A stretch of 35,071 nucleotides of DNA, from positions 1 to 35,071 of the forward strand of contig JAHEII010000010.1 of the NCBI GenBank assembly GCA_024639485.1. Direction: 5' to 3'. The notes under the pieces were generated by a model that was not told where the DNA came from, did not search any database, and saw only the letters and a list, made by a program, of their open reading frames with translations. This document shows positions 25,042 to 33,420 of the stretch, one piece after another. Numbering within the stretch: position 1 is the first letter of the stretch; every line of letters starts with the position of its first letter. The position numbers were made by a program, and so were the translations under genes. This stretch comes from Alphaproteobacteria bacterium. Lineage in GTDB: Bacteria > Pseudomonadota > Alphaproteobacteria > Puniceispirillales > UBA1172.

Positions 25042-25734
25042 CTAAATAGGGTCAAGGTGATCAGATTCAAGGCGATACATTTCATCTAGCCAGCCAAGAC
25101 CTATCGCCGCGTCATTGAGATTTTCAGAAACCATAACCGCATGTTGCCGGGTAAACGCATCGGCCGCAACCAGATCAGGAATATGAATAACTGGTACGCC
25201 TGCCGCATACGCCGCCATGATCCCCTGATGCGAATCTTCAAAAGCAATGGCATGTTCCGGCGCACATGATATAGCGGCGGCGGCGGCAATATACAGATCA
25301 GGTGCCGGTTTTCCGGATTGCACCTGATCGCCGCCAATCACCTGTTTCATAAACCCGTATAATCCCGCCCGATCAAGCAAGGTTTCTGCCTTGTCTGTCT
25401 GGGTTGATGTCGCCACCGCCATCGGCACACCTGCCGCATTCAGCCATTGGCAAAGCGACCGTGCATAGGGTTTTAACGGAACCACATGGCGAAGCTGATC
25501 AAGAAACAGATCACGCCAATCTTTATCAAAGCGCAATAAATCAACATGATCAGGCAACAGATCAGCAAAAATAGCACGTTGTTCTTGCTGATTACGTCCA
25601 ATCAGCTGGCCATATTGATTTGCTACCTGGCCAGCGTTATGCGCATGGCAGGTATGTTGAAACGTTGCCGCAGATACTTTTTCGGTATCAATCAGCAATC
25701 CATCCATATCAAAAATAACCGCTTGCGGAAGCAT
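25042..25734 (-). CDS. HAD-IA hydrolase (beta-phosphoglucomutase/YcjU-like)
   Basis: VIFDMDGLLIDTE, VATSTQTDKAETLLD, SGKPAPDLYIAAA, AFEDSHQGIMAAYAAG. Confidence 0.9.
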   Translation of the reverse strand: MLPQAVIFDMDGLLIDTEKVSAATFQHTCHAHNAGQVANQYGQLIGRNQQEQRAIFADLLPDHVDLLRFDKDWRDLFLDQLRHVVPLKPYARSLCQWLNAAGVPMAVATSTQTDKAETLLDRAGLYGFMKQVIGGDQVQSGKPAPDLYIAAAAAISCAPEHAIAFEDSHQGIMAAYAAGVPVIHIPDLVAADAFTRQHAVMVSENLNDAAIGLGWLDEMYRLESDHLDPI

Positions 25735-25821
25735 GAGTTTTCAAACCACATCATAGACAGGATTGCGAAAGACCCCCATGTTAGGCTAGTATTTTTGCTA
25801 TTGCAATAAAGGGTGCTGATT

Positions 25822-26226
25822 ATGCTTCAAGCTTCTGATATCCGCTATCTGGTGGTGCATTGTTCTGACACCGATGATGACTTAACCGCATCTGACATTC
25901 ACGCTATGCATCTGGGGTTTGGCTGGGACGGGATAGGATATCACGCTGTTATTATCAAGGATGGCACCATTGAACAGGGTCGCCCGCATTTCTGGGCAGG
26001 CGCGCATGTTTACGGGCATAACGAAGAAAGCCTTGGCGTCTGTCTGATCGGCCGGAATGATTTTACCCCCGAACAGATGACCGCACTGGACGAATTGCTT
26101 CGTGACTGGATATCCCGCTATCCGCAAGCCCGCATTTGTGGCCATCGTGATTTTCCCAACACTCAGAAAACATGCCCTAATTTTGATGTGGCCGCATGGG
26201 TAAAAGATCGCGGATTAACCGGATGA
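25822..26226 (+). CDS. N-acetylmuramoyl-L-alanine amidase, T7-lysozyme/PGRP-like (Amidase_2), no signal peptide
   Basis: YLVVHCSDT, GIGYHAVIIKDGTIEQGRP, CGHRDFPNTQKTCPNFDV (H...K-x-C ligand/catalytic pattern of T7 lysozyme type); ORF track start 25813. Confidence 0.9.
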   Translation: MLQASDIRYLVVHCSDTDDDLTASDIHAMHLGFGWDGIGYHAVIIKDGTIEQGRPHFWAGAHVYGHNEESLGVCLIGRNDFTPEQMTALDELLRDWISRYPQARICGHRDFPNTQKTCPNFDVAAWVKDRGLTG

Positions 26227-26978
26227 AACAGATCACCTCCCCCTCTGCCCCCATGGTTAATTCTGCTGATCTGTCTAGCGGACTGGAAACCGAAGCGCTG
26301 TTTGGTGAAGACATCACCATTTGTGATGATAGCCGCGCGGACTGGGTTCACATCCGGCTGGAAACAGATCAGTATCTGGCATGGATAGAGCGTCGGCATC
26401 TGGGCGTATTGCCAACACCGACACATCGCATATGCACTATCCGCGCGCTGATCACCAGTGGCCGCAACATCAAAACCCCGACCATGGGATATCTGCCGCT
26501 GGCCGCCCGCGTTCATGTGATTGAACAATCGGAACACGTGGCAAAAATTGCTCTGGGGCAAGACCGGACAGGATATATTCCTTCAGATCATATCAAGCCG
26601 CTGGATGATTTTTGTGCTGACTGGGTTGCCACCGCCGAACAATTGATCGGGGTGCCGTATCGATGGGGTGGTCGTGACAGCATGGGGATGGATTGCTCCG
26701 CGCTGGTTCAACTGGCCATGGCTAGCGGCGGAATGGCAAGCCCGCGCAATAGCGGTGATCAGGAAAAAACTCTAGGGTCAACATTGCCGCCAGATGCTGA
26801 TCTGATGCGCGGTGATCTAATATTCTGGCGTGGCCATATCGGTATTATGCAGGATCACCGCCGTTTAATTCATGCAAATGCATGGCATCATATGGTCATG
26901 AGCGAAAATCTGGATACGGCAATCCAACGCATCAAAGCCAATAATGGTGGTGATGTCACCCGACTCGTTCGACTTTGA
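26223..26978 (+). CDS. NlpC/P60 family peptidase with N-terminal SH3-like region (YkfC/dipeptidyl-peptidase VI-like)
   Basis: GVPYRWGGRDSMGMDCSALVQLA, RGDLIFWRGHIGIMQD, LIHANAWHHMV; ATGA overlap with the upstream amidase; no signal peptide. Confidence 0.92.
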   Translation: MKQITSPSAPMVNSADLSSGLETEALFGEDITICDDSRADWVHIRLETDQYLAWIERRHLGVLPTPTHRICTIRALITSGRNIKTPTMGYLPLAARVHVIEQSEHVAKIALGQDRTGYIPSDHIKPLDDFCADWVATAEQLIGVPYRWGGRDSMGMDCSALVQLAMASGGMASPRNSGDQEKTLGSTLPPDADLMRGDLIFWRGHIGIMQDHRRLIHANAWHHMVMSENLDTAIQRIKANNGGDVTRLVRL

Positions 26979-26986
26979 TCCGGGTT

Positions 26987-28327
26987 TTAATCCGCACTGG
27001 CGCGCGTGCCTAATTCACGTCTTAATATGACCAATAAAATCAAGGATGGAATGACCATCACAGCGGTAATGATAAAGAACACACCCCAATCGCCATCCAG
27101 ACTATCCACCATCCAGCCAGATGATGACGCCAGAAGCGTCTTACCAGCAGTCCCGATTGATGCCAGCAAAGCATATTGCGTGGCGGTATAGCGGCGATCA
27201 ACCAAGAGCGATATAAAGGTTACAAACGCAACTGTGGCAAACGCGGCGGCCAGATCATCCAGCATAACCGCCAGCGCAAATAACCAGTCCACCTTACCAA
27301 CCCAATACAATAAACTGAACATGATATTAGTGCTAGCCATGGCTATTCCGGCAATAAACAGCGCCCTAACCGTACCCATCCGCATGGCAAACCAACCACC
27401 AATCAATGTGAAAATAATGGTAACAACCCAGCCAAGGCCTTTGGAATAAATCCCAATCTCGGATTTGCTGAAGCCAATTTCCCGATAAAACACAATGGAC
27501 ATTTTGCCCATAAATGCCTCACCAATTTTGAATAGAAAGACAAAGCCAAGAATAGCCAGCCCAATACGGACACCATTATTGCGGAAAAAAGACGCCAGCG
27601 GATCAATAACGGTTTCAATCAGCCATGTGAATAGCCGCGTGATTAACCCGGTCGGCGAAAGCTGCTGATGATTATCATGGGATGCCATGCTTCGTTGTTG
27701 TTCGGGGATCAGCAATAACCCCAGATTCATCAATGCAATCATGAACAGAACAGATATGAATGTCATCTGCCAGTAATTAGCCACACCCATCGCCTGAATA
27801 TAATCAGCAATAAAAAATGTGATCATGCCGCCTAGCTTAAAGCCACTCCACCAGCCAATGACCGACATAGCCGCCCCTGCCGCCATCACTTGCCGTTCAT
27901 CCTGACCAGCCTGTTCTATCCGCAACGCATCTATCACAATATCCTGTGATGCCGAAGCAATGGCAATAATCAAACCGAACCCGATAACAAGCACCAGATG
28001 TTCTGTTGCGTCTAGCTGTATCCAGAAAAGAAGTGAGATGAAAATACAAATCTGGAACAGGATTATCCATGCTTTGCGATGCCCCAGTTTCCGGCTAATC
28101 CATGGCAAGGATAGCCGGTCAATCAAAGGCGCCCAGAGAAAATTAAACGCATAAACCCCAAAAATTAATCCGGCAAAACCAACGGTTGTCCGGCTTAATC
28201 CGTCTTCTTTGAGCCATAAGGTCAGCGCGCTGCCGATCAGCACCCAGGGAAAACCACTCATCATCCCAAGCAGAAAAATCCTAATCATCCGCTTGTCCAT
28301 ATATCCATTAAAATATGATGCTAACAT
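26987..28327 (-). CDS. ampG: AmpG-type muropeptide permease (MFS)
   Basis: About 12 TM; LLGMMSGFPWVLIGSALTLWLKEDG, KFLWAPL-like FNFLWAPLIDRL, GHRKAWI, ASASQDIVIDALRIE. Confidence 0.9.
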   Translation of the reverse strand: MLASYFNGYMDKRMIRIFLLGMMSGFPWVLIGSALTLWLKEDGLSRTTVGFAGLIFGVYAFNFLWAPLIDRLSLPWISRKLGHRKAWIILFQICIFISLLFWIQLDATEHLVLVIGFGLIIAIASASQDIVIDALRIEQAGQDERQVMAAGAAMSVIGWWSGFKLGGMITFFIADYIQAMGVANYWQMTFISVLFMIALMNLGLLLIPEQQRSMASHDNHQQLSPTGLITRLFTWLIETVIDPLASFFRNNGVRIGLAILGFVFLFKIGEAFMGKMSIVFYREIGFSKSEIGIYSKGLGWVVTIIFTLIGGWFAMRMGTVRALFIAGIAMASTNIMFSLLYWVGKVDWLFALAVMLDDLAAAFATVAFVTFISLLVDRRYTATQYALLASIGTAGKTLLASSSGWMVDSLDGDWGVFFIITAVMVIPSLILLVILRRELGTRASAD

Positions 28328-28352
28328 GAACTATATCTCTTTTTTCAATGGT

Positions 28353-29120
28353 TTAATTCGTCATATGATCTGTTACTTTTGCCAGATATTCATCCATCTG
28401 TTCTTTGCGGCGAACAAGCTTGGCATTAGTGGGTTTCATGGCAACCATTAATCCGTTTTTGATACGTCCCAGCCTTGCCATTACTAATGTTGAGATTGTA
28501 TTGAGGCATATTTTCTGTGCTGTACCTGCTTTTAGCCGGGTTGATCCGGCCAACACCTCACCACCAGTTTCCAGTAGAATAGGATATTCGGCCGCATCAA
28601 GCAATGGCGTTTGCCGGTTATTGGAAATGCCGATAGTCAACGCCCCTTGCTGGCGGGCGGCGGCCAGTACTGAAATAGTAAACGCGGTGGTGCCACTAGC
28701 GGCCAGACCAATAACCACGTCTTTATCATTTATGGCGGCATTGGTGACCGCTGTCTGTCCTGCATCGGTATGATCTTCGGCGCCTTCTACGGATTGCATC
28801 AACGCGCCCATGCCTCCGGCAATCACATATTCCAGCCGTTCTTGTGGCCAGTTGAATGTTGGCGTTAATTCTACCCCGTCCTGCACCCCTATTCGTGCTG
28901 ATGTTCCGGCACCGGCATAAATAATGCGGCCGCTGGATGATGCGCCTAACCGTTCTGCCATCGCCGTAATAGCGGCATCAAGCGTGGCACTAGCCTGTTT
29001 TAAAGCCGAAATAGCACCGGCCTGATTATCCAACATGACGGTAATCGCATCTGCGTTTTCCAGCTGATCCAGCCATTGTGACTGATCCGGATAATCCTCA
29101 GTAGTAAGATACATGCTCAT
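28353..29120 (-). CDS. murQ: N-acetylmuramic acid 6-phosphate etherase-like SIS protein (short form)
   Basis: GRIIYAGAGTSARIGVQDGVELTPTF, VIAGG..A...VEGAEDH, VIGLAASGTTAF, GSTRLKAGTAQKICLNTIST; 255 aa. Confidence 0.88.
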   Translation of the reverse strand: MSMYLTTEDYPDQSQWLDQLENADAITVMLDNQAGAISALKQASATLDAAITAMAERLGASSSGRIIYAGAGTSARIGVQDGVELTPTFNWPQERLEYVIAGGMGALMQSVEGAEDHTDAGQTAVTNAAINDKDVVIGLAASGTTAFTISVLAAARQQGALTIGISNNRQTPLLDAAEYPILLETGGEVLAGSTRLKAGTAQKICLNTISTLVMARLGRIKNGLMVAMKPTNAKLVRRKEQMDEYLAKVTDHMTN

Positions 29121-29180
29121 TGTGATATCCTGACAGAATTATACCCATACAACAAGCCTCAACAAAAAACGGCACGCTAG

Positions 29181-30326
29181 ATGACAACAACATTAATTCC
29201 CGAATTAATTCCTGTTATTGGGCTGATGTCCGGCACCAGTATTGATGCCGTAGACGCGGCGTTGATCATGACTGATGGGCAAAGCTTTACCCGAACCGGC
29301 ATCACCGCCAACTTGCCATGGCCAGATCATATTCGGGCGGCCATATTTGCCGTTGTTGATGATCCATCGCGGCTAGAAAATCGGGATGACATTAGCGCAT
29401 TGGAACATGATATTGCCCAGCATCACGCGCTTGCCGTGGGCGCTATTCATGATCAGATGAAATCGCCAGCCGCGTTAATCGGATTCCATGGCCAGACCGT
29501 GTTGCATAAACCGGAACAAGGCTATTCGGTGCAATTGGGATCAGGCGAAACACTGGCACATATCACCGGATGTCCGGTGATCTATCAATTCCGGCAAAAT
29601 GATCTGCATCATGGTGGTCAGGGCGCGCCATTAGCGCCTGTTTATCACGCGGCTTTGCTAAAACAGATGCAGATCAGCGCACCGGCCGCGATTGTAAATA
29701 TTGGCGGCATTGCCAATATCACCGCCATAACAGACAAGCAAATGATCAGCATGGATACAGGCCCCGGCAATGCCATGATGGACAGGATGATGCAAACATA
29801 CCGCCAACAGCCATTTGATCATGATGGTCAAACCGCCGCCGCAGGACAATGTGATGGTGATTATGTAAACACAGTTCTGGCACATGACTGGTTTCATCTG
29901 CCGCCACCCAAATCACTTGATCGCGTGATCACCGAACAGATGCTTAGCTCTGGTCAGCTTGATACATGGTTGAATACCATGCCACTTGCCGATGCCATGG
30001 CCAGCCTTGCTGAGATCACGGCACGGTCAATTTATATGAGCTGTCTGCATTTGCCGCAATTACCTGAACAGATGATTCTGGCCGGTGGGGGGGCGCGTAA
30101 TCGCTATCTGGTTGACCGGATCAGCCATCACATGAATAGCACGGCAAATATTGATGTTCATATTATGGACGACTATCATATCAACGGCGATTTTATTGAA
30201 GCCGAGTTAATGGCATTTCTTGCTGCGCGAAGCCAGAACGGATATCCGATAAGCTTTCCGGATACAACCGGCGTTGATATCCCGCGATCAGGCGGGGTGC
30301 GCATTGATCCGGTAAATCCGGTTTAA
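29181..30326 (+). CDS. anmK: anhydro-N-acetylmuramic acid kinase
   Basis: IGLMSGTSIDAVDAALI, IGFHGQTVLHKP, DLHHGGQGAPLAPVYH, VNIGGIANIT, DTGPGNAMMD, LAGGGARN. Confidence 0.96.
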   Translation: MTTTLIPELIPVIGLMSGTSIDAVDAALIMTDGQSFTRTGITANLPWPDHIRAAIFAVVDDPSRLENRDDISALEHDIAQHHALAVGAIHDQMKSPAALIGFHGQTVLHKPEQGYSVQLGSGETLAHITGCPVIYQFRQNDLHHGGQGAPLAPVYHAALLKQMQISAPAAIVNIGGIANITAITDKQMISMDTGPGNAMMDRMMQTYRQQPFDHDGQTAAAGQCDGDYVNTVLAHDWFHLPPPKSLDRVITEQMLSSGQLDTWLNTMPLADAMASLAEITARSIYMSCLHLPQLPEQMILAGGGARNRYLVDRISHHMNSTANIDVHIMDDYHINGDFIEAELMAFLAARSQNGYPISFPDTTGVDIPRSGGVRIDPVNPV

Positions 30327-30342
30327 TCTGTTTTGCTGATGG

Positions 30343-31035
30343 CTAGATCAACGCATCCGAGCCGCGAATATAAAACGGTCTAATGGGCGGCGGCGGCGGC
30401 AAAATAGCTCTAATATCGGCAAAAGGAAAACGCTTATCGTGTCGATATGTTTCCATGTAATGGCCATCCGGGGCATTCATTTGTGCGGCACGAAACCGGT
30501 TATGAATACGTGTTGCCGCAACAAACCGCTCTGGTTCCTGACTTTCATGTGCCATGATTGCGGCTTCTTTTGCCGCCATATATGATGTGATATCAACATA
30601 ATATTCTGGAATAAATCCTGTCCCCATCAAACTATCCGCATATAAAAGCGGACAACGAAATCCGGCGGCATCCGCAATATATCGGGATAACGCCCGATGA
30701 TCCGGATGATAATCTTCGGGTGCGTGAGTGATCACCAGATCAGGTTGCTGATCAAGCACAGCGTCACGAATAATCGCCGCCGCCCCATCATGAGTAGCCA
30801 GTTTTCCATCTGGCAGGTTCAGCATCACCGGTTGCCCCAGTGCGGCAAGCCCTGTCTTTGTTTCAACCGCTCGTTTCGCGGCAAGTTCAGCCCCCGGTTG
30901 ATCACCGCCTGCCGCCCCGTCTGTCGCTACAATCAGCGATAGCGTATCCCCACGCGCCTGACAGACAGACAACATCCCAAACATGAATATTTCCAGATCA
31001 TCCGGATGCGCCCCGATAGCCGTAATATGCGGCAT
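30343..31035 (-). CDS. PIG-L (LmbE-like) N-acetylglucosaminyl deacetylase family
   Basis: IGAHPDDLEIFMFG, VATDGAAGG, DLVITHAPEDYHPDHRALS. Confidence 0.92.
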   Translation of the reverse strand: MPHITAIGAHPDDLEIFMFGMLSVCQARGDTLSLIVATDGAAGGDQPGAELAAKRAVETKTGLAALGQPVMLNLPDGKLATHDGAAAIIRDAVLDQQPDLVITHAPEDYHPDHRALSRYIADAAGFRCPLLYADSLMGTGFIPEYYVDITSYMAAKEAAIMAHESQEPERFVAATRIHNRFRAAQMNAPDGHYMETYRHDKRFPFADIRAILPPPPPIRPFYIRGSDALI

Positions 31036-31135
31036 CTTTTCAATCCCCTATCTTTGCTGTAGCTGTCTTTCCCATCCCCGTCTTTCCAATCTGATCGGAT
31101 CGGTTTACAATGCAATCATAACGAAAGGTGGCATA

Positions 31136-32329
31136 ATGACCAAGACTAATCCGCTCACATATGACGGATATATTGAGGGCTATTACGGACGGCTTTTGTC
31201 TTTTGCTGATCGCCGGCGTGTGCTTAAACAGCTCAACGCACTTGGTATGACCAGCTATTTTTACGCGCCAAAGGATGATCCTTTTCACCGGCTAGATTGG
31301 CGTATGCCCTATCCCGAACAATGGCTGGCAGAATGGCGGCAATTTATTGCTGATGCAAAAGACATGGGCATCACCGTCATTGCCGGATGCGCCCCCGGCC
31401 TTGATTTGAATATCACGGCCGAAACGGATATCGCTATCATAGCTGATAAGCTAACCAGCTTATGCGGATATTCCGCTGAACAATCGGCTATACCCTGTCT
31501 TTTGATGGATGATATTCCGCCAGCTATGGCTGATGCCAATGGCCAGCACCATCAGGAAGGACAGGCGCATGCCCGACTGGTCGGGCAACTGGCTGACCGG
31601 CTGGCTGCAACTGGCCATCCTAATATCATGGTAACGCCGCGAGTTTACGCTGATGAACTGGATAAAGACACCCCCGGTTATCTGAACGGATTTGTGCCGG
31701 AATTGCCAGCTGGTATTCCTGTTTTTTATTGTGGAAAGCATATTGTTGCCCATGATCTGAACATGTCGGGAACCGCCATTTGTGATGCCGGCATGGAGAC
31801 CAGCAATATTGTTATCTGGGATAATATTTATGCCAATGATTACTGCCCAAGACGGCTTTTTCTTGGAGCAAGATATGGGGAATCCAAGCATGGGGTATCT
31901 AAGCATGGGTGGGCTGAGGCGCGGCACCATACTGGCGGCGTTATGCTGAACCCTACCGGAATGATTGAAACCGATATTCTGCTTCTGGATATAATGGCCG
32001 CCGATCATGATAAGGATAGCTGGCAGGCGATATTCCGGAAGCATCATGTCCCGGATGCTTTTTTTGAAATCGCGCATGCCTTTGACCGGCCTGTTGATCC
32101 CGACGCATCTGAACACCCATTACCGGATCAAAATATTCCGGTTATGCTATCCGCCCTTGATGAATTGTTATGGCGCTGGAAATCCCCATTAGCACGGGAA
32201 TGGTATCCGTTTTTGATGGGGCTGCGCGGTGATTTGCTCATGCTATCAGGCGCGGCAGATGATTTACGGCAAGCCAAGATTATGCCGCCTTATTTGCGGC
32301 AATATTATCAAAGAAAGACGTCAGAATGA
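31136..32329 (+). CDS. GH84 family beta-N-acetylglucosaminidase (O-GlcNAcase-like)
   Basis: DGYIEGYYGRLLSFADRRRVLKQLNALGMTSYFYAPKDDPFHRLDWR; tandem Asp LLMDDIPP (codons 31508-31513); VIWDNIYANDYCPRRLFLG; GVMLNP. Start at ATG 31136, after AAAGGTGG. Confidence 0.93.
   Translation: MTKTNPLTYDGYIEGYYGRLLSFADRRRVLKQLNALGMTSYFYAPKDDPFHRLDWRMPYPEQWLAEWRQFIADAKDMGITVIAGCAPGLDLNITAETDIAIIADKLTSLCGYSAEQSAIPCLLMDDIPPAMADANGQHHQEGQAHARLVGQLADRLAATGHPNIMVTPRVYADELDKDTPGYLNGFVPELPAGIPVFYCGKHIVAHDLNMSGTAICDAGMETSNIVIWDNIYANDYCPRRLFLGARYGESKHGVSKHGWAEARHHTGGVMLNPTGMIETDILLLDIMAADHDKDSWQAIFRKHHVPDAFFEIAHAFDRPVDPDASEHPLPDQNIPVMLSALDELLWRWKSPLAREWYPFLMGLRGDLLMLSGAADDLRQAKIMPPYLRQYYQRKTSE
31877..31906. repeat. 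15-bp in-frame tandem duplication within the GH84 gene
   Basis: ggggaatccaagcat / ggggtatctaagcat (13 of 15 identical) encoding G-E-S-K-H / G-V-S-K-H. Confidence 0.85.
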
Positions 32330-33420
32330 CAAATATATTTGATGGCCATAATGATGCGTTATTGCGATTATGGCGCCAAAACCAGCACCCTAATCAGCAA
32401 GTTGGCGATATTGGCGGCCAGAGCTTTATCACCGGCGATAGTCCGGCTCAGCTTGATCTGCCTAAAGCACGGCAAGGCCAGATGGTTGGCGGTTTTTTTG
32501 CCATGTTCACCCCTGCCCCTGATAAAGTAGCAAATGATAAACTATCAATTCATAAAACACAGAATTCGAACCGGCAAATGGCCGGTGATATCCTAAACCT
32601 TGATCCAGTTGATCATCATGATGCGCTTCATGCGACCAATGCCATGTTTGATATTGCTGATCATCTGGCCGCACATTATCCCGACCATATGCGTATCTGC
32701 CGGACAGCGCATGATATTCGCGCCGCTATCAGCAATCAGCAAATGGCGATGGTCATGCATATTGAGGGCGCGGAGGCCATTGCCCCTGACCTGTCTAATC
32801 TGGATGCGTTTTATGATCGCGGCTTGCGGTCAATCGGGCCTGTCTGGTCACGGCCCAATGATTTCGCCTATGGCGTGCCATTTGAATATCCATCTTCGCC
32901 TGATATTGGGGACGGATTAACCGATGCTGGGCGCGCCCTGATCATGGCTTGCAATCAGAAACATATCATGATTGATCTGTCCCATATGAACGAAGCCGGA
33001 TTCTGGGATATCGCGAGGTTAAGCACCGCCCCATTGGTGGCCACACATTCCAACGCCCATAGCATTTGTCCGGCATCACGCAATCTGACCAATCGCCAGC
33101 TGGATGCCATTGCCGAAAGCGGCGGACTGGTCGGGGTTAATTTTGCTATTGGCTTCTTGCGTCCTGATGGCCAGAAAAATCCTGATATGCCGGTTGAGGT
33201 CATCATCCGGCATCTGGATCATCTGCTAACGCATCTGGGGGAAAATGGTGTCGCGCTGGGGTCTGATTTTGATGGTGCAGAAATGGCCAATGATTTAAAC
33301 ACGGCGGCCAATTTGCCCGTGCTAGTCGCGGCAATGCGGCAGGCCGGATATGGCGAAGCGCTGATCACCCGCATCTGTCACCAGAACTGGATTGATATGA
33401 TTGAAACCGTAATAGGATAA
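32326..33420 (+). CDS. M19 (renal/membrane-type) dipeptidase, no signal peptide
   Basis: FDGHNDALLRLW, VMHIEGAEAI, LRSIGPVWSRPNDFAYG, IDLSHMNEAGFWDIA, ATHSNAHSICPASRNLT, LGSDFDG; ATGA overlap with GH84 gene. Confidence 0.94.
   Translation: MTNIFDGHNDALLRLWRQNQHPNQQVGDIGGQSFITGDSPAQLDLPKARQGQMVGGFFAMFTPAPDKVANDKLSIHKTQNSNRQMAGDILNLDPVDHHDALHATNAMFDIADHLAAHYPDHMRICRTAHDIRAAISNQQMAMVMHIEGAEAIAPDLSNLDAFYDRGLRSIGPVWSRPNDFAYGVPFEYPSSPDIGDGLTDAGRALIMACNQKHIMIDLSHMNEAGFWDIARLSTAPLVATHSNAHSICPASRNLTNRQLDAIAESGGLVGVNFAIGFLRPDGQKNPDMPVEVIIRHLDHLLTHLGENGVALGSDFDGAEMANDLNTAANLPVLVAAMRQAGYGEALITRICHQNWIDMIETVIG

Follow-up and report, generated by a model that had tools for sequence, protein, structure and literature searches.

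In Gram-negative bacteria such as Escherichia coli, peptidoglycan is recycled by AmpG, AmpD, NagZ, LdcA, AnmK, MurQ and NagA. NagZ, a drug target with a link to beta-lactam resistance, is regarded as the standard cytosolic glucosaminidase of this recycling. Here we analyse a window of 35,071 nucleotides (contig JAHEII010000010.1 of assembly GCA_024639485.1, positions 1 to 35,071, forward strand) from an alphaproteobacterium of the Puniceispirillales (UBA1172), in which eight consecutive genes at 25813-33420 form a candidate peptidoglycan-recycling locus. The locus shares AmpG, AnmK, MurQ and the logical steps with the E. coli pathway. In contrast to E. coli, it has a GH84 glycosidase, a PIG-L deacetylase, a YkfC-like NlpC/P60 peptidase with an M19 dipeptidase, and a T7-lysozyme-type amidase, and it has no NagZ, NagA, LdcA or AmpD in the strict sense. 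Caulobacter crescentus, also an alphaproteobacterium, resembles the host in having AmpG, AnmK and an enzyme of the Amidase_2 family and in lacking LdcA (PMC13046382). It also lacks Mpl and MurQ, keeps a GH3-type NagZ and NagA, and uses a MurU shunt (PMC13046382), whereas the locus has GH84, PIG-L and MurQ. The GH84 of the locus shares with the described O-GlcNAcases of this family (human OGA, OgOGA, NagJ and BtGH84) the fold, the two catalytic Asp residues and the residues of the GlcNAc pocket. It differs in belonging to a clade of its own, whose members are leaderless, have ~390 aa and are linked to AnmK, AmpG and the amidase, and its proposed substrate is a muropeptide. In the open-licence literature we found no paper that joins GH84 with AnmK or proposes GH84 as a recycling enzyme, which is not proof of novelty. 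The sole paper joining GH84 with peptidoglycan recycling is on NagZ inhibitors, and, judged by title and abstract, none of the listed papers on SAR116 and peptidoglycan deals with recycling.

Comparative genomics supports the original prediction of a non-canonical cytosolic recycling locus in which neighbouring genes fill the missing steps. It is highly probable that this is a cytosolic peptidoglycan-recycling locus where unrelated or divergent enzymes stand in for several canonical ones; overall, it is the known pathway with two probable new enzyme replacements, GH84 and PIG-L. Gene identities, conservation, co-occurrence, the absence of canonical genes and intact active sites were observed, and from these we infer all substrates and the order of the steps. 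AmpG would import GlcNAc-1,6-anhydroMurNAc-peptides, from which the T7-type amidase would free the stem peptide in the role of AmpD. The YkfC-like NlpC/P60 peptidase would split the freed peptide at gamma-D-Glu|mDAP to give L-Ala-D-Glu and mDAP(-D-Ala), and the M19 enzyme would hydrolyse the L,D-dipeptides left by it. On the sugar side, GH84 would take GlcNAc off anhydroMurNAc in the role of NagZ, AnmK and MurQ would convert anhydroMurNAc to GlcNAc-6-P, and PIG-L would deacetylate GlcNAc-6-P (less likely free GlcNAc) to GlcN-6-P for GlmM in the role of NagA. We lean towards the view that this GH84 subfamily is a dedicated recycling glucosaminidase displacing NagZ throughout the order and in Granulosicoccaceae, and that PIG-L proteins form a second class of GlcNAc-6-P deacetylase, not homologous to NagA, with which they changed places three or more times. 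If this is true, the GH84 replacement shows that the NagZ step can be filled by another enzyme family and provides a natural role for one clade of the family to which human O-GlcNAcase belongs; furthermore, surveys keyed on nagZ, nagA and ldcA misjudge abundant marine bacteria as non-recyclers.

The gene for the GH84 beta-N-acetylglucosaminidase (31136-32329, + strand; PF07555, NAGidase, 5e-42, 144.6 bits against a cut-off of 25) encodes a leaderless protein. Its catalytic D125-D126 and the pocket residues K46, Y171, W228, N230, D235 and N272 are invariant in 29 aligned GH84 sequences; we take the equivalents in human OGA to be D174/D175, K98, Y219, W278, N280, D285 and N313. The AlphaFold model (pLDDT 88, pTM 0.90) has the TIM-barrel OGA fold, with OgOGA and human OGA as the best PDB matches (prob 1.00, TMq ~0.7). 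The protein has no GH3 domain and belongs to a different family; thus it may act like NagZ, but it is not NagZ. We searched the host genome (1.88 Mb, 97% complete, with the window as contig 18) and 60 relatives, which belong to SAR116 (e.g., MED595, MED880 and Candidatus Puniceispirillum), for the canonical enzymes. None of these 61 whole-genome searches found GH3 (NagZ), GH20 or Peptidase_S66 (LdcA), and identical searches did return matches in control genomes. GH20 as an alternative to NagZ was rejected, with zero in 61 genomes. NagA above the cut-off was absent from the host genome (G000), which gave only weak fragments of ~19 bits, and from its family. The sole Amidase_2 protein in the whole host genome is the amidase of the locus, and no AmpD-type gene lies elsewhere. 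The original prediction had noted nagZ, ldcA, nagA and ampD as missing from the window; they are missing from the genome as well. We also looked for nagZ and ampD elsewhere together with a lack of co-conservation at the locus, which would have told against the prediction, and found instead strong co-conservation of both GH84 and the amidase with the anmK, murQ and ampG genes.

The gene set is kept across the SAR116 order. Across ~40 regions that we retrieved, the arrangement HAD, amidase, NlpC, AmpG, MurQ, AnmK, PIG-L, GH84, M19 reappears, with some genes lost or rearranged, and GH84 adjoins AnmK across the order. GH84 and AnmK are both present in 40 of the 61 genomes, both absent from 17 and mixed in 4; the corresponding figures for the 37 good assemblies are 27, 9 and 1, all counted irrespective of relatedness. 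Amidase_2 is also absent from all 9 good assemblies without GH84 and AnmK, so the recycling pathway is lost as a unit. Of 318 evenly sampled Alphaproteobacteria, 263 have GH3 and 245 have AnmK. Joining the two lists, GH3 is present in 226 of the 241 AnmK genomes outside the SAR116 order (~94%), and GH84 occurs outside the order in only 4 genomes, every one with GH3. Because AnmK genomes elsewhere mostly keep GH3 and GH84 is rare, the putative swap of GH84 for NagZ is a property of the SAR116 order within the class. The proposed role of GH84 in place of NagZ, as a cytosolic GlcNAc-anhMurNAc glucosaminidase, is thus well supported by its genomic context: the order has no GH3, GH84 co-occurs with and adjoins AnmK, and the same set is found in Granulosicoccaceae.

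The PIG-L family de-N-acetylase (30343-31035, - strand; PF02585, 5e-23) carries AHPDD and HPDH motifs, and its nearest PDB entry is diacetylchitobiose deacetylase. It had been assigned only to the amino sugar, and the comparison with NagA sharpens this assignment to a stand-in for NagA. Among the 40 genomes with GH84 and AnmK, the PIG-L of the locus is found in 30 and NagA in 7; no genome combines them, and 3 lack both. The Fisher test for this pattern of exclusion ignores relatedness. NagA sits near anmK in four of its seven genomes. On the GH84 tree, the branches with good support require the PIG-L and NagA states to have changed at least three times; this count rests on the GH84 tree, not on a species tree, and a few tips (e.g., L119) were scored from the locus only. 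Mutual exclusion together with repeated switching is what one expects if two unrelated enzymes catalyse the same reaction, most obviously GlcNAc-6-P deacetylation, and PIG-L is therefore likely to be a GlcNAc-6-P deacetylase replacing NagA. It is possible, although doubtful, that PIG-L acts on another substrate (free GlcNAc, GlcNAc-anhMurNAc or anhMurNAc) in a route via GlcN and is not a stand-in for NagA. The nearest PDB entries, which include BshB besides the diacetylchitobiose enzyme, use GlcNAc glycosides or disaccharides, and no GlcNAc kinase is seen in the locus, but a shared reaction is the best explanation for the exclusion of NagA and the repeated switching.

The core genes of the locus are of known recycling families. 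The AmpG-family muropeptide permease (26987-28327, - strand) scores 365 bits against the 350 of the TIGR00901 subfamily model, and the 1,6-anhydro-MurNAc kinase AnmK (29181-30326, + strand; PF03702, 1e-76) scores 386 bits against the 352 of the PRK09585.1-5 equivalog. The MurNAc-6-P etherase MurQ (28353-29120, - strand; PDB 4s12, 3e-44) is a short form of 255 aa, without ~55 C-terminal residues of the family. It exceeds the PRK05441 subfamily model (281 against 168 bits) and falls below the TIGR00274 equivalog (199 against 302 bits) because its C-terminal part is missing; order-wide, MurQ has ~250 aa and is without 50-odd residues at the C-terminus. In loci L085, L097 and L100 (genomes G025, G045 and G059), no MurQ lies inside the fetched region, and AnmK adjoins NagA there. 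In L065, L066 and L068 (G003, G004 and G005), PIG-L and NagA are both missing and ampG is replaced by a divergent AmpG in the opposite orientation. The match AmpG(160) in G004 was considered as a different transporter and rejected, as it is a divergent AmpG with 483 bits to TIGR00901.

Besides the core genes, the locus encodes three peptide-side enzymes. The N-acetylmuramoyl-L-alanine amidase (Amidase_2; 25813-26226, + strand, GTG start; PF01510, 1e-18) has T7 lysozyme as its best PDB match (2.5e-21) and keeps, at aligned positions, the His, His and Cys zinc ligands and the catalytic Tyr and Lys of that enzyme. It is proposed to serve in the role of AmpD, is of T7-lysozyme type and scores below the AmpD equivalog model (24 bits against a cut-off of 143). 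The replacement is a modest one, because AmpD is itself an Amidase_2 protein. In several genomes of one family (f3), the amidase and NlpC/P60 are fused in one open reading frame of 394-459 codons, so the two activities appear tied together. The NlpC/P60 peptidase (26223-26978, + strand; PF00877, NLPC_P60, and PF18348, SH3_16) has YkfC (3h41) and dipeptidyl-peptidase VI as its best PDB matches, and shares with them the SH3b plus NlpC/P60 arrangement, the triad, most S1/S2 residues and the SH3 Tyr. In our alignment A2, the triad C158/H205/H217 and Y146, D157, S159 and R175 are invariant and W148 is nearly so; Y51 of the SH3 domain is conserved, an assignment made by sequence only. These are the marks of the YkfC subfamily. 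Leaderless proteobacterial members of it were already noted (PMC2954226). The original prediction counted the enzyme among the non-standard families; YkfC-like peptidases are a known recycling type.

The third enzyme, a Peptidase_M19 dipeptidase (32326-33420, + strand; PF01244, 2e-91), would act as an L,D-dipeptidase on L-Ala-D-Glu and/or mDAP-D-Ala. Its best PDB matches are 3ly0/3fdg (6e-98), the closest being the structure of a Rhodobacter dipeptidase, and several families of the order have its gene 3' of GH84. ElsL is a cytosolic LD-carboxypeptidase of Acinetobacter (PMC8649774), and a leaderless ElsL-like YkuD protein of ~180 aa is encoded beside ampG in 70 related loci (e.g., L077:7440-7979 and L082:1511-2053), which cover most relatives outside the host's genus. 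We propose that this protein may take the role of LdcA in those relatives. The YkuD gene was not found in the 35-kb window or in the loci of the host's genus; the whole host genome was not searched for YkuD. It is unlikely that the locus is catabolic and scavenges environmental muropeptides instead of recycling the cell's own wall: MurQ and the dipeptidases yield amino acids and an amino-sugar phosphate usable as nutrients, as is established for these families, but AmpG imports periplasmic turnover products and the hosts are small-genome plankton. Scavenging and recycling overlap, however, and sequence does not separate them.

Outside the order, we found 17 loci with the same GH84 subfamily in Granulosicoccaceae (Gammaproteobacteria) among GH84 relatives taken from GTDB genomes. 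In each, one or more of the amidase, AmpG, AnmK and NlpC genes lie nearby, and in 5 of the 17 AnmK lies immediately 5' of GH84 in compact gene rows. GH3 is absent from 10 of these genomes; six others have GH3 proteins of >800 aa or with leader-like N-termini, and one has a 156-aa fragment. In the GH84 tree, the sequences of SAR116 and Granulosicoccaceae group with one from Chitinivibrionales, and 100/100 support separates this group from other GH84 of Alphaproteobacteria. An alphaproteobacterium that has GH3 carries a GH84 of a separate clade clustered with AmpG, a GntR-like gene, MurQ, AnmK and a NagK-like kinase (L184:607-7402). This clade differs yet adjoins AmpG, MurQ and AnmK, which suggests a second, independent recruitment of GH84. 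That GH84 is a bystander, an O-GlcNAcase or scavenging glucosaminidase for protein O-GlcNAc or marine glycans, with an unrecognised enzyme cleaving GlcNAc-anhMurNAc, is very improbable: the closest solved structures are O-GlcNAcases and GH84 is mostly unlinked to anmK in other Alphaproteobacteria, but the protein is leaderless, is lost together with AnmK, keeps its adjacency in two classes and occurs in an order without GH3 and GH20.

Several points weigh against a recycling locus with GH84 and PIG-L as replacements. The GH84/AnmK counts ignore relatedness, as only the PIG-L/NagA switch count uses a tree. Amidase_2 was undetected in 11 GH84-bearing genomes, several of them incomplete, and G015 (86% complete) has AnmK without GH84 and without GH3. 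G003, G004 and G007 carry GH84 and AnmK without PIG-L and without NagA, and a GlcNAc kinase was not found in the locus (the genome was not searched for NagK). Unlike YkfC, which has Asp256, the NlpC/P60 protein of the locus lacks an acidic residue at this position; it has Asn176 there, and the position is Asn in the host genus and Asp in several relatives.

All eight open reading frames are present in the order and on the strands first described, with families assigned by Pfam and NCBIfam. Two of the first gene calls were corrected: the start of NlpC is 26223 instead of 26196, and GH84 most likely starts at the ATG at 31136, with the Shine-Dalgarno-like AAAGGTGG just upstream. A start at 30983, which would make GH84 an exported lipoprotein, was rejected because the ribosome-binding site precedes 31136 and the extension is not conserved in close relatives; the extension is leader-like but runs antisense into the PIG-L start and is closed in those relatives. 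With the corrected starts, inspection shows no hydrophobic leader in any soluble product, in agreement with the first description, and these products look cytosolic. Both ATGA overlaps described before are present, between amidase and NlpC at 26223-26226 and between GH84 and M19 at 32326-32329. In L074:10977-13052, GH84 and M19 lie in a single open frame of 692 codons, which is either a fusion or a sequencing error. Upstream of the amidase, a HAD-IA sugar-phosphatase-like gene (25042-25734, - strand; HAD_2, 1e-29) was considered as MupP and rejected (33 bits against a cut-off of 359). This conserved, divergent neighbour stays beside the amidase in two families.

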